Part shown: in pieces, positions 10,792-29,708 of the stretch
Layout: each line of letters begins with the position of its first letter
Numbering within the stretch: position 1 is the stretch's first letter
DNA from: Ferruginibacter sp.
Lineage (GTDB): Bacteria > Bacteroidota > Bacteroidia > Chitinophagales > Chitinophagaceae
Length of the DNA stretch: 38,606 nucleotides
Direction: 5' to 3'
Assembly: GCA_025350645.1 (NCBI GenBank)
Contig: JANXXM010000015.1
Span: 1 to 38,606, forward strand
Program-made: the position numbers and the translations under genes
The notes under the pieces: model-generated
Databases searched by the model: none
What the model was told of the DNA's origin: nothing
Seen by the model: only the letters and a program-made list of their open reading frames with translations

Positions 10792-11736
10792 TTATTTTAT
10801 GAGCGTTGTTTCTTCATCTTTTAACTGTATTTTTTCCACGGGTATTTCTTCTATTTTTATCCATACAGAAAAATCGTTAGGATATATTTTTCCACCAAAG
10901 TTGGTTGCATACACTTTTGTAAATACTGCACCAAGGTACAATATTGCAGAGCTGTAATATACCCATATCATTAAAATCATTATAGAGCCAGCGGCACCAT
11001 AAATATTACCTACATTACTTTTGCCCAAATAATATCCTATAGCATATTTACCTAGTAAAAAAAGGCAGGCAGTAATAAGTGCTCCTGTAAACACATCTTT
11101 CCATTTTATTCTTGCATCTGGTAAAATTTTAAAAATTGTTGCAAACAAAATAGTTGTGATAGTAAGCGAAATTACCACATCTATTAAAACCAGCAGTGTG
11201 CCACCCAATGCCGGAATAAGTGCAATAATTTTTGTGCTTATGGCCGCAGCAACGGCATTAAGTACAAGAGATACCACAAGCACAAAACCCAGGCTTAGTA
11301 TGAGGGAAAACGAAATAAGCCTGTCCACGAGCACTTTCCACCAAGCCTTTTTAGATTTAATTTTTAATCCCCATATTTTATTAAGCGAATCTTGTATTTC
11401 CCCAAAAATGCCCGTTGCCCCCAATATCAATACGATTATGCCCGTAATAGTTGCAAAAATATTATTGCCACTAAGTTTTATATTTTTAATAGAGTTTTGA
11501 ATTTGCAAAGCCGCTTCACTGCCTACCATACTATTTATTTCAGGATACAGTTCACCCTTTATTGCTTCTTTGCCAAAGAAAAAACCAGTAACCGTAAGCA
11601 ATATTACCAATAGTGGTGCTATAGATAAAACAGTGTAATATGCAAGAGAAGCGCTATATTTAAGAACATTTGCTCCAGCAAATTCTATCAGCACCTGTTT
11701 ATTAAATCTAAAAAAATTAATTATTTTTTTTTTCAT
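10792..11736 (-). CDS. YihY/BrkB family inner-membrane protein
   Basis: A 314-residue polytopic membrane protein with about six membrane helices. It has the family N-terminal block NVLKYSASLAYYTVLSIAPL and the later ILMIWVYYSSAILYLGAVFT segment. Family members (UPF0761, historically mislabelled ribonuclease BN) are widespread, and their transport role is still unclear. The C-terminal tail is charged and cytoplasmic. It precedes the sigma-54 activator on the same strand. The upstream gap of about 300 bases is shared with the divergent receiver gene. Confidence 0.88.
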   Translation of the reverse strand: MKKKIINFFRFNKQVLIEFAGANVLKYSASLAYYTVLSIAPLLVILLTVTGFFFGKEAIKGELYPEINSMVGSEAALQIQNSIKNIKLSGNNIFATITGIIVLILGATGIFGEIQDSLNKIWGLKIKSKKAWWKVLVDRLISFSLILSLGFVLVVSLVLNAVAAAISTKIIALIPALGGTLLVLIDVVISLTITTILFATIFKILPDARIKWKDVFTGALITACLFLLGKYAIGYYLGKSNVGNIYGAAGSIMILMIWVYYSSAILYLGAVFTKVYATNFGGKIYPNDFSVWIKIEEIPVEKIQLKDEETTLIK

Positions 11737-26265: not shown

Positions 26266-26373
26266 ATGAAAATTTTATGCCTGCTTTTTATATGCATTGC
26301 CGCTCATGTTTATAGTTGCCGGATTATGGGCAATTTAAAAACGGGGATATTTATCCACAACTCTATTTGTTAA
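26266..26373 (+). CDS. Possible 35-residue lipoprotein
   Basis: The open frame MKILCLLFICIAAHVYSC has a hydrophobic signal-like start and a lipobox Cys18, then 17 residues to a TAA. A -7-like box lies just upstream. It overlaps the end of ligD by 11 bases on the other strand. It could be a real tiny lipoprotein, a truncated gene or chance. Confidence 0.3.
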   Translation: MKILCLLFICIAAHVYSCRIMGNLKTGIFIHNSIC

Positions 26374-28264
26374 GTTTGTTAATACAACGACTTATGTTTA
26401 CACCCGGCCCTAACACACCTTTAAATACATCTGGCATTTTCTCTATTCTTTTTAGGGCATTAAAAATGGTAAACTGTTGTGGTGTTAATCCTTTTTTTAC
26501 CTCTTTCCACAACAGGGGCATAGAAACAGTAGCGTCCTTCTTTGGCCTTAATGAATATACAGATGCTATGGTTTGTCCGCTTCTGTTTTGTAAATAATCC
26601 AGGTAAATATGTTTGTTTCCACGCTTTTTTAAATTGCATTCCATCGTTGTAAAATTCGGCAATATTTCTTGCACATACATACATAATAATTGCGCAAATT
26701 TTTTTACTTCTTCATAGTCATATTTTTTTTTCATGGGCACATAAATGTGCAGGCCAGATGCACCAGAAGTTTTACAAAAACTTTTTGCTTCTGCTTTATC
26801 TAAAACTTTTTTAAAAGCATTTGCAGTTTCTATAACCTGGTCAAAATTATTATTATCAGAAGGATCAATATCAATTATGAGATAATCTGGATTATTAGGG
26901 AATTTTGTGGTAGAGTGCCATGGATTTATTTCTATACAACCCAGATTATTCATGTAGGCAAGTGTGGCTTTATCGTTGCAAATAATGTAGTCAATTTCTT
27001 TGTTAGATGAATCTGAATGTACTGCAAAAGTATGCACAAAACTAGGTGCATTTTCACCGGCATCTTTGTGAAAAAAGCCGGTTTCATTAATGCCGCCTGG
27101 GTTTCTTAATAATGACTGCGGACGGTCTTTTAAAAATGGTAAAATATATTTTGCTATTGACTGATAATATGCAGCTATCATTTTTTTTGTAACGTTCTCA
27201 TCAGGAAAATAAATTTTATCGGGATGTGTAATGGCAACTACATTCTTTCCTTCTTTTATTAAAAATTCAGGCTCACTTTTGGATGCCGATTTTCTTTGTT
27301 TTATTTCTACAGATTTTTTTAAAACATTTTTTGACCCGCCTTTATTTGCAATTATTTTTCCAAGCAATGGTGCTTTCATTGTAATTTGGTTTATTGTTTT
27401 ATCATTTCTCATTCTCAAAAAAACAGGATGTCGAAGTTTTTCATCTCCGGTCCATTCCGTAAATTTTACTTCACAAATTAGAATTGGTTTTACCCACGTT
27501 ACTGTATTATTTACCACAACCTTTTCTGCAAAAGGAGCGTTTTTTTGAACAAGCGGTTGCAACAATTCAAAAATTTCTTTAAGCTTTTTATCATCGTAAC
27601 CGCTGCCTGCATGGCCTGTGTGTACGAGTTTTTTACTTTTCATTACACCCAGCACCAGCGAGCCAAAATATTGCCTGCTGCCAGTTGGTGCCGTGTAGCC
27701 GCAAATAATTACATCCGCTGTTTTATGATTTTTTATTTTTAGCCATTCGCCTGTTCTTTTACCTGCATAATATTCCCCGTCTGCTTTTTTTGCCATTATT
27801 CCTTCCAAGTTTTTTTGTGTGGAGACTTCAAAAAAAGCAATACCTTTTTCGATAACATGATCAGAGAAGCGGATAACATCATTATTTGGGAGTAGTTTTT
27901 TTAATAATGATTTTCTATCTATTAATGGCAGATGGTATATTTTTTCTCCATTCATTTCAAGCAAATCAAATACATAATAACAAACAGGAAAATGCTGGTT
28001 GTTTTCATAATGCTGCAATTTTTGAAAATCCGGTAAACCATTTTCATCTAGCACCACAATTTCTCCATCCAGTATTGCTTTGTAGTTAATTTTTTGTAGC
28101 TCATCAAATACAATTGGGTAACTATTACTAAAATCAATTCCGTTGCGGGAGTATAATTTATTTATGGTGGAACCTGTTTCGGCAATAGCTCTGTACCCAT
28201 CCCATTTTATTTCATAAATCCATCCTGCATCATCAAATGCATTGGCTGTTTCCTTTGCCAGCAT
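26363..28264 (-). CDS. ligD: DNA ligase D, ligase and polymerase domains
   Basis: A 633-residue frame. The ATP-dependent ligase domain (about 1-300) has the adenylated lysine in motif I EIKWDGYRA (Lys20), then LDGEIVV, EGIMAK and GEWLKIK. The LigD polymerase/primase domain (about 345-620) has ITHPDKIYFPDE, YLIIDIDPSD with the metal-binding aspartates, and ASGLHIYVPMKK. With the phosphoesterase frame upstream this makes the PE-Lig-Pol order seen in Pseudomonas LigD. The reading frame is open upstream of the ATG back to an A9 tract, where it meets the PE frame. It repairs double-strand breaks together with Ku. The ATG at 28264 is the best independent start; a fused product is also possible. Confidence 0.93.
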   Translation of the reverse strand: MLAKETANAFDDAGWIYEIKWDGYRAIAETGSTINKLYSRNGIDFSNSYPIVFDELQKINYKAILDGEIVVLDENGLPDFQKLQHYENNQHFPVCYYVFDLLEMNGEKIYHLPLIDRKSLLKKLLPNNDVIRFSDHVIEKGIAFFEVSTQKNLEGIMAKKADGEYYAGKRTGEWLKIKNHKTADVIICGYTAPTGSRQYFGSLVLGVMKSKKLVHTGHAGSGYDDKKLKEIFELLQPLVQKNAPFAEKVVVNNTVTWVKPILICEVKFTEWTGDEKLRHPVFLRMRNDKTINQITMKAPLLGKIIANKGGSKNVLKKSVEIKQRKSASKSEPEFLIKEGKNVVAITHPDKIYFPDENVTKKMIAAYYQSIAKYILPFLKDRPQSLLRNPGGINETGFFHKDAGENAPSFVHTFAVHSDSSNKEIDYIICNDKATLAYMNNLGCIEINPWHSTTKFPNNPDYLIIDIDPSDNNNFDQVIETANAFKKVLDKAEAKSFCKTSGASGLHIYVPMKKKYDYEEVKKFAQLLCMYVQEILPNFTTMECNLKKRGNKHIYLDYLQNRSGQTIASVYSLRPKKDATVSMPLLWKEVKKGLTPQQFTIFNALKRIEKMPDVFKGVLGPGVNISRCINKLNK

Positions 28265-28305
28265 TGGTTTTACAGGATTAAGTATTTTTGTATGGTTTGC
28301 ACTTA

Positions 28306-28929
28306 CTAATCTGTAACGAGCTTTTTTTTTACAGGTTCATTTTTATCCTTTTGTAAAAGTGCTTTATTTATGAGAGAGGTTTTAGGCGTTTCTTTTTCGC
28401 TGTCGTAAGCAGTAGCAACAGCATATTTATCATTGTGTTTTATAAGCAGCCAAGTATTATCCTTATCGCCTGTTCTGTTTTTTATTTTTACTAAAGCAAA
28501 CGCTCCTTTTAGTTTTTTACCTTTTAAAATAAATTTTAAATTGCCCGCTTTTAATCCAGCTTTTAGTAATTTTTTTTCATCTGCATTTTTATCATCAGCT
28601 AATGCGGTATATTTTCCGCTATCCCAAATTTCTACAACACCGGCGCCATAATTTCCTTCGGGTATTATTCCTTTAAAGTCTTTATAATCGTATGGGTGGT
28701 CTTCTACCATCATCGCCAGCCGTTTATCCTTCGGGTTTAGAGATGGCCCTTTTGGCACTGCCCAGCTTTTTAAAACGCCATCCATTTCCAGCCGAAAATC
28801 ATAATGCAGGTGCGATGCTTTATGCCGTTGCACAACAAAAGAAAGCTGCTTATTTTCTGAAGCTCTTTTTCCGCCTGGCTCCGGTGTATTATCAAATTTC
28901 CTTTTTTTATTGTATTGGGAAAGGCTCAT
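28306..28929 (-). CDS. LigD-type 3'-phosphoesterase domain protein
   Basis: A 207-residue protein carrying the LigD PE domain, which trims 3' phosphates and ribonucleotides at break ends. Motifs: HKASHLHYDFRLEMDG, LKSWAVPKGPS, VEDHPYDYKDFKG and IPEGNYGAGVVEIWDSG. In most LigD proteins this domain is fused to the ligase. Here its frame ends in TAG-TAA shortly after an A9 tract (28322-28330), and the ligase frame is -1 to it. The tract contains A-AAA-AAG in the phase used by slippery frameshift sites. The ku gene ends 2 bases before its ATG, so ku, PE and ligase-polymerase are one operon. It may be a split gene, a slippage-fused gene, or one broken by a sequencing indel. Confidence 0.9.
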   Translation of the reverse strand: MSLSQYNKKRKFDNTPEPGGKRASENKQLSFVVQRHKASHLHYDFRLEMDGVLKSWAVPKGPSLNPKDKRLAMMVEDHPYDYKDFKGIIPEGNYGAGVVEIWDSGKYTALADDKNADEKKLLKAGLKAGNLKFILKGKKLKGAFALVKIKNRTGDKDNTWLLIKHNDKYAVATAYDSEKETPKTSLINKALLQKDKNEPVKKKLVTD

Positions 28930-28931
28930 GA

Positions 28932-29708
28932 TTAAGAAGCTTTTTTACGTTTATTTTCAATGCTTACTTTTAATTGTTCCATTAAATCTTTTGCTTTGCT
29001 ATGTACAATTTTCATCACGGGTTCTACAGTTTTTTTCCCTTTTGCTTTTGCGTTTATTACTTTCATTAGTGCAGCAGAATAGGTATCCTTGTATTTCGAA
29101 ATATCAAATTTGCCCGAGAGCTGATCTATTAATGCTACAGCCATTTTTAATTCAGCTGGTTTCACTATTGTTTTTGAGGGCAATTCAAGATCGGTTGTTT
29201 TTCTTATCTCTTCATGAAAACGAATGCGGTTCAAAATAATGGCATCGCCGGATATTCTTAATATAGCAAGGTGTTCTTTATTGCGCATCACAAAACTGGC
29301 AACACCGGCACGTTTTGTTTTTATCAACGCTTCCCGCAGCAAGGCATAAGGCCGCACACCACTTTTTTCTGGTACAAGGTAATAGGGCATTTCGTAATAC
29401 ATGCTGTCTATTTCTTCCTGCATTACAAAATCTGTTATTTCAATTAATTTTGTTTTTACAGCATTCGCTTTTTCAAAATCACTCTCCTCCAGCACTACAT
29501 ATTTAGAGCCGGTATCGTATCCTTTTACAATATTTTGCCAGGCTACTTCTTTGCCGGTTTTTTCATTTACCCGTAAAAACTTTATGTGTGCATGATCTTT
29601 TTTATCCAGCATATCCAAATCAATATTGCTGCTTTCTGTACCACTGTAAAGCTTTACAGGAATATTTACCAAACCAAAGCCTATAGCACCTGTCCAAATT
29701 GGTCTCAT
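28932..29708 (-). CDS. ku: Non-homologous end-joining protein Ku
   Basis: A 258-residue bacterial Ku with the family start MRPIWTGAIGFGLVNIPVKL, the central beta-barrel core (MYYEMPYYLVPEKSGVRPYA, then LLREAL) and a Lys-rich C-terminus. It forms a homodimeric ring on double-strand ends and recruits LigD. Length and motifs are normal. First gene of the NHEJ operon; the PE frame begins 2 bases downstream. Confidence 0.96.
   Translation of the reverse strand: MRPIWTGAIGFGLVNIPVKLYSGTESSNIDLDMLDKKDHAHIKFLRVNEKTGKEVAWQNIVKGYDTGSKYVVLEESDFEKANAVKTKLIEITDFVMQEEIDSMYYEMPYYLVPEKSGVRPYALLREALIKTKRAGVASFVMRNKEHLAILRISGDAIILNRIRFHEEIRKTTDLELPSKTIVKPAELKMAVALIDQLSGKFDISKYKDTYSAALMKVINAKAKGKKTVEPVMKIVHSKAKDLMEQLKVSIENKRKKAS

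Follow-up and report, generated by a model that had tools for sequence, protein, structure and literature searches.

Organization of the ku-ligD locus

The window, i.e., the whole stretch of 38,606 nucleotides that we analysed, comes from a Ferruginibacter sp. assembly of 3.6 Mb in 185 contigs that is 99% complete. Pfam and NCBIfam models identified Ku, a LigD_N/LigD_PE_dom domain, and an NHEJ ligase with a LigD primase-polymerase. This is the complete domain set of the DNA ligase D of non-homologous end joining (NHEJ), with phosphoesterase (PE), ligase (LIG) and primase-polymerase (POL) domains and Ku nearby, and it is distributed over two frames. Judged by its domain content, the locus is that of an NHEJ DNA ligase D with the order PE-LIG-POL. 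Its features are as follows.

28932..29708, minus strand: ku, non-homologous end-joining protein Ku (open reading frame; PF02735, 157 bits; TIGR02772, 288 bits)
28306..28929, minus strand: PE frame, LigD 3'-phosphoesterase of 207 aa (PF13298, 145.8 bits; TIGR02777, 219.2 bits)
28322..28330, minus strand: A9 tract, putative slip site, read GTA AAA AAA AAG in the PE frame (from the sequence; A9/A10 in 56 of 61 split junctions)
28321..28327, minus strand: in-phase heptamer A_AAA_AAG within the A9 tract, possible ribosomal slip site (from the sequence)
28303..28308, minus strand: PE-frame stops TAG TAA, the first of them 13 nt past the A9 tract
26363..28336, minus strand: LIG-POL frame, open from 28336 (PF01068, PF04679, PF21686; TIGR02776, 543 bits; TIGR02779, TIGR02778)
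28262..28264, minus strand: Met codon ATG of the PMLA motif, the sole ATG/GTG/TTG in the ligase frame through PMLA

The ku gene lies directly upstream of PE, with 2 nt between the ku stop and the PE start. In Pseudomonas and Mycobacterium, LigD is described as a single protein with PE, LIG and POL domains (PMC7719229). The window shares with these systems all three domains and the adjacent Ku gene, but differs from them in having PE and LIG-POL in two frames and in the order PE-LIG-POL.

An earlier reading of this DNA, made from the sequence alone, had proposed that ligD is split into two frames around the A9 run at 28330-28322, that the PE frame ends in TAG-TAA shortly after this run, and that a -1 shift there leads via GCT CGT TAC into the ligase. 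We found the same arrangement. The junction is read GTA AAA AAA AAG CTC GTT ACA GAT TAG TAA in the PE frame and, one base back, TGA ACC TGT AAA AAA AAA GCT CGT TAC in the ligase frame, which is -1 relative to PE, encodes 652 aa downstream of the A9 tract and stops at 26363. The A-AAA-AAG heptamer is likewise in phase at 28327-28321. The ligase frame, said to run back exactly to the tract, does reach it, but in fact extends slightly through it to 28336, two codons before the tract, where it is limited by a TGA at 28339-28337. The ATG that had been taken as the ligase's own (28264-28262) exists, but it is the conserved methionine of the PMLA motif of the ligase domain and therefore not clearly a start codon. 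A start codon at the upstream stop, as expected for a coupled fission, is absent from the window; the only candidate is the PMLA methionine, 44 nt past the PE stop.

The A-tract is conserved at split PE-LIG junctions of Bacteroidota

We searched with the ligase frame of the window in 59 near genomes (22 matched), 93 genomes of the genus (26 matched), 394 of the family (184 matched) and 395 of the phylum (43 matched); these sets overlap and their cut-offs differ. From a named genome collection searched in the same way, the best 80 of 132 matches were kept, and 120 further junction regions were picked from among the matches listed. This gave 309 loci. PE preceded LIG within a single stretch in 241 of them, which correspond to 218 distinct junctions; the 68 excluded loci had no PE in the stretch, encoded other ligases or were incomplete. 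Since the loci come mostly from the top of the match lists and are mutually related, the counts below are not independent. Two doubtful loci, L009 (by eye broken elsewhere in the gene) and L094 (N's at the junction), were kept in the counts.

In 157 of the 218 junctions PE and LIG were fused in frame, while 55 required a -1 and six a +1 shift. An A9 or A10 lay inside the frame overlap in 56 of the 61 split junctions, including the window, and both frames spanned the tract in all 56; 52 of these tract splits need -1 and four need +1. As the longest A-run of the linker, A9/A10 was present in 69/157 fused, 52/55 -1 and 4/6 +1 junctions, i.e., in 125/218 PE-LIG linkers in total, and no linker had a longer run. 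Among the 61 splits A8 occurred in only two and A11 in none; A8 occurred in 15 fused genes. In equal-length control stretches of the flanking domains, A9 was found in 2/218 and 1/218 cases. Where both linkers were available (n = 131), A9 or more was present in 79 PE-LIG linkers versus three LIG-POL linkers, and the LIG-POL linker was frame-broken in two loci. Thus, a sense A-run of the length associated with programmed transcriptional slippage (about 8-9 or more) lies at the frame junction, and it is conserved among orthologues beyond the background given by these three controls.

The comparison of the tract in relatives that the sequence-only reading had suggested therefore revealed a conserved tract and not a private indel. 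Unbroken relatives do occur, as the 157 fused junctions show, and 69 of them carry A9/A10; the pattern described earlier as speaking against slippage, namely unbroken relatives without a conserved tract or an indel private to this DNA, was not what we found. These data also bear on the possibility that the window carries a homopolymer error from sequencing or assembly, for which the origin of the window from a 185-contig assembly might speak. The nearest relative found (L033 in genome G083; ligase 69% identical) has the same A9 and the same frame relation, and ten of the 56 tract splits (L035, L144, L167, L170, L177, L241, L243-L246) come from genomes with at most ten contigs, five of them from single-contig genomes. 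We consider an error in the window highly improbable, and with the same tract and frames present in other genomes, some of them single-contig, a private indel or assembly error was rejected.

The ligase frame often lacks a usual start codon

If ligD had undergone a true fission, PE and LIG-POL would be separate proteins, LIG-POL being made from the PMLA ATG or by re-initiation, and the A-tract would represent linker codons or an A-rich translation enhancer. To some extent start codons fit this scheme: in 18/56 tract splits an ATG, GTG or TTG lies no further than 30 nt from the PE stop. However, the ligase frame of 33/56 has no ATG/GTG/TTG ahead of the PMLA methionine (for five of the 56 loci, in which the PMLA pattern did not match, we set a fixed limit 60 nt ahead of the EIKWDG motif).

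Four of the five splits without A9 had an ATG no more than 30 nt from the PE stop, versus 4/56 with A9 (Fisher p 0.0006). The four are L005, L047, L134 and L139, whereas L072, which has A8, lacks such an ATG; all three -1 splits with a run shorter than A9 carry an ATG near the stop. Three of these tract-less splits, L005, L047 and L139, with an ATG at or just past the PE stop, resemble genuine fissions for which the tract is no longer needed, and they show that this arrangement exists in the family.

We compared the stretch between the PE stop and PMLA in 42 of the 61 splits, which fell into nine similarity groups. The share of differences at ligase codon positions 1, 2 and 3 was 0.405, 0.315 and 0.579. 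When 39 of these 42 loci were taken and only the 21 start-less ones in groups of at least two were used, the values were 0.398, 0.323 and 0.569. Because differences are in excess at the third position, this stretch appears to be translated in the ligase frame. Taken together with the lack of a usual start, such translation suggests that ribosomes arrive from the PE frame, although initiation at an unusual codon near the tract may also account for it. Fission does not require the A9/A10 found in 56/61 splits, and it is at odds with the ligase-frame constraint ahead of PMLA in start-less loci. For the window we regard it as unlikely, and as a general account it was rejected because of the 33/56 loci without usual starts and the ligase-frame constraint.

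Split and fused states follow clades

On a FastTree phylogeny inferred from PE+LIG, 18 changes between the split and the fused state were counted; shuffled states gave a mean of 53 and a minimum of 45 in 500 shuffles. Split clades comprise 11, 8, 7 and 6 loci, and ligase identity to the window is 50-69% in the largest. The split state is thus inherited clade-wise.

This distribution is relevant for phase variation, in which replication slippage would toggle between fused and split states within populations. Tract length differs by just one A between two near relatives, L173 with A9 (split) and L154 with A10 (fused); the 18 state changes and the A9/A10 or A8 runs of fused genes (69 and 15 of 157) also count in favour of such switching. 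Against it stand the clustering of the split state in clades of up to 11 loci and the scarcity of A8 and absence of A11 among the 61 splits, as free switching should give more of them. The position of the PE-frame (LIG+1) stop points in the same direction: it lies at a median of 13 nt past the tract in the 52 -1 splits and 19 nt in fused tract genes, i.e., somewhat nearer in splits (p 0.04). We therefore view phase variation as quite unlikely.

In a ligase-core control the median distance to this stop is 31 nt, and the -1 splits differ from it with p 2.5e-9. One clade of eight has the PE stop directly after the tract in 7/8 loci; with T or C as the last base of a ligase-frame valine codon, this stop would not exist. 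When split state was tested against presence of the tract in independent pairs, the result was not significant (median p 0.22), because the two members of most pairs agree in having or lacking the tract.

Fused genes that carry the tract

Since the fused genes encode a KKK peptide at the tract, we compared them with a null of synonymous codons, run for fused genes only. A9 or more was seen in 69/157 versus 45.7 expected (200 synonymous resamplings, maximum 63), the remaining 88/157 in-frame junctions having no A9, and A11 or more was not seen in any versus 5.9 expected. The tract of fused genes thus arises in part from the peptide, and its excess over the synonymous null is moderate; as this null already accounts for 45.7 of 157, the claim of slippage is weaker for the fused genes. 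Off-frame stops in fused genes were nearer than in the control in the LIG+1 frame (p 1.6e-5) and not nearer in the LIG-1 frame (p 0.18). If slippage occurs in fused genes with the tract, their output would be the reverse of that of split genes: LigD by default, and PE on slipping.

Proposed slippage by RNA polymerase or by the ribosome

The joining of PE to the ligase by slippage, as proposed in the sequence-only reading, is partly supported by the conserved tract, the coding constraint upstream of any start and the clade-wide inheritance. From these sequence data we infer that slippage occurs, that it takes place during transcription and that the cell uses both products. The A9 tract is probably a programmed ligD slippage site, with RNA polymerase as the most likely agent, that would give both free PE and full LigD. 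RNA polymerase would add A's to the tract or drop them. An unslipped A9 message would yield the 207-aa phosphoesterase ending in KKKLVTD, and a message with one extra A (A10) would be read on through ...EPVKKKARYRLVSANH... into a LigD of about 855 aa that comprises PE, ligase and polymerase. The ratio of free PE to full LigD would be set by tract length and context.

The same two products would result from -1 programmed ribosomal frameshifting on A_AAA_AAG or A_AAA_AAA in the tract, by analogy to E. coli dnaX, where the ribosome shifts by -1 on A_AAA_AAG (PMC3711429). The window contains such an in-phase heptamer at 28327-28321, and exactly -1 is needed in 52/56 tract splits, for which reason we keep the ribosome as a candidate. 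In favour of the ribosome, 25 of these 52 splits, including the window, have a phase-2 A9 followed by G, i.e., NNA AAA AAA AAG; in favour of the polymerase, the run is not confined to one phase of the PE frame (11, 11 and 30 of the 52 in phases 0, 1 and 2). A one-sided direction of frameshifting would, according to a rule given in PMC3711429, point to the ribosome. Of the four +1 tract splits, L009 and L094 are doubtful for the reasons given above and L036 has an ATG 7 nt beyond the stop, so that only L037, together with the A8 locus L072, speaks for both directions.

RNA structure downstream of the tract was slightly stronger than in a control 300 nt further on (mean z -0.5 in the 56 tract-split loci versus 0.0; z below -2 in 9% of the loci versus 4% of controls), but neither the average nor the window (z -1.2) has a strong stem. 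Furthermore, wherever a -1 split lacks an ATG close to the stop, it keeps nine to ten A's, although a heptamer would suffice. The extra third-position A, considered in 16 phase-2 clades, has a chance of about 9e-8 under codon usage, a post-hoc figure.

The background of A-runs was determined in a sample of the organism's own open reading frames (L310-L329 and the window; 371 kb of ORFs), which contain 24 sense runs of A9 or longer. A9 itself is hardly avoided (23 observed versus 27 expected). Any slippage at A9 must therefore be modest or else tolerated, and strong slippage at each A9 is hard to reconcile with this frequency. The ORFs do avoid A10 and longer runs (1 observed versus 18.7 expected). 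The sole one, A10, lies 3 nt after the start of the window ORF 10792-11736 on the minus strand. T9 or longer is also avoided in the sampled ORFs (8 versus about 30 expected). Two other A9 runs near ORF ends in the sampled stretches of this genome had, by eye, no continued frame. In-phase A_AAA_AAG is over-represented in the sampled ORFs, with 76 observed versus 38 expected, and is thus not avoided; this contrast with A10 and longer runs favours the polymerase over the ribosome.

Comparison with dnaX

As a positive control, dnaX was examined across the genus at 31 loci (L330 on contig C123 of the genome that holds the window, and L333-L362 from 30 of 54 matched genomes). An in-frame tract at about codon 377-400 is A9-A11 in 30/31 loci and A8 in one; the genome of the window carries A11 there, at codon 385 of 599. 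In 31/31 loci the -1 frame meets a stop no more than 14 nt past the tract, and in 17/31 the +1 frame meets one within 2 nt. By analogy, this tract resembles the slippage site of Thermus thermophilus dnaX, where transcriptional slippage takes place on A9 (PMC1088944, PMC3711429). Thermus dnaX and the window ligD have in common a sense-strand A9 between gene parts, and the slipped and unslipped messages of Thermus dnaX, from which a short and a long protein are made, correspond to the two-product scheme proposed here. They differ in that the unslipped frame gives the long product in Thermus dnaX and would give the short one in the window ligD; the fused ligD genes with the tract share the dnaX arrangement. 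GeneTack reported dnaX genes split into two ORFs, most of them at poly-A of up to ten A's (PMC3711429); as in the window ligD, the ORFs are adjacent and in -1 relation at a poly-A tract, although the genes differ. For magnesium chelatase cassettes, 10, 40 and 63% frameshifting was reported with seven, nine and eleven A's, figures that in the accessible part of PMC3711429 do not separate polymerase from ribosome. The window ligD shares the in-phase heptamer with E. coli dnaX but differs from it in a run longer than needed, the lack of a clear downstream stem and the opposite default product.

In the sequence-only reading, the tract had been likened to the E. coli dnaX site, with several mechanisms left as options. 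The heptamer and the -1 direction bear this out, but we judge the ribosome the less likely of the two agents, because A9/A10 is retained in full when a heptamer would be enough, because the heptamer is not avoided in genome ORFs and no strong structure follows the tract, and because the A9-A11 tract of dnaX in the same genus resembles the Thermus transcriptional site. A ribosomal slip in ligD thus appears rather doubtful to us, and slippage by RNA polymerase is the reading that we prefer.

Implications of the proposed slippage in ligD

Extending this reading to split and fused genes alike, we tentatively propose, as a possibility that the present data make conceivable and not yet likely, that the tract is a phase-tolerant dual-output device in many Bacteroidota, in which slippage supplies the non-default product. 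If so, one-base changes would let lineages exchange one default product for the other, with free PE and full LigD both persisting.

If ligD is indeed controlled by RNA polymerase slippage, this slippage would set the PE/LigD ratio and hence how the repair of double-strand breaks is balanced between the cleaning of ends and their sealing; in these cells the clamp loader DnaX would probably be under the same control. Many ligD genes of Bacteroidota that seem broken, or seem to be two genes, would make the full enzyme and a free phosphoesterase. Programmed slippage would then be widespread in the central enzyme of bacterial end joining, bacteria could divide NHEJ activities by expression and not by gene structure, and the role of free PE in bacteria would become testable.

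To our knowledge, programmed slippage in cellular (non-transposon) bacterial genes is limited to few cases, e.g., dnaX and some secretion genes. Our literature searches on LigD with frameshift or slippage, judged by titles and the beginnings of abstracts, yielded no report of ligD recoding. The words 'split', 'fission' and 'frameshift' do not occur in PMC7719229, the only 'ligase' named in the main text of the GeneTack paper (PMC3711429) is Mur ligase, and 'ligase' is absent from the 300,000 of 475,107 characters covered of a recoding review (PMC5009743).

Other ligD arrangements

Five loci from genus members (L006, L008, L012, L045 and L046) have a fused ligD without ku upstream in the fetched stretch and with A9 in the PE-LIG linker; over the ligase part these proteins are about 37-41% identical to the window, and the comparable locus L007 has A8. 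Three further loci from genus members lack the ligase domain at this place: L010 encodes PE-POL in one frame without A9, L025 encodes Ku-POL without PE, and in L052 Ku-PE is accompanied by POL in another frame, with an ATG overlapping the PE stop and no A9. Finally, the ligD of genome G031 (contig C170; L009, L026 and L120) has extra frame breaks, which on visual inspection lie close to A-runs of the LIG-POL linker and of POL, and G031 also has no dnaX match at 1e-80; both may reflect decay or homopolymer errors.
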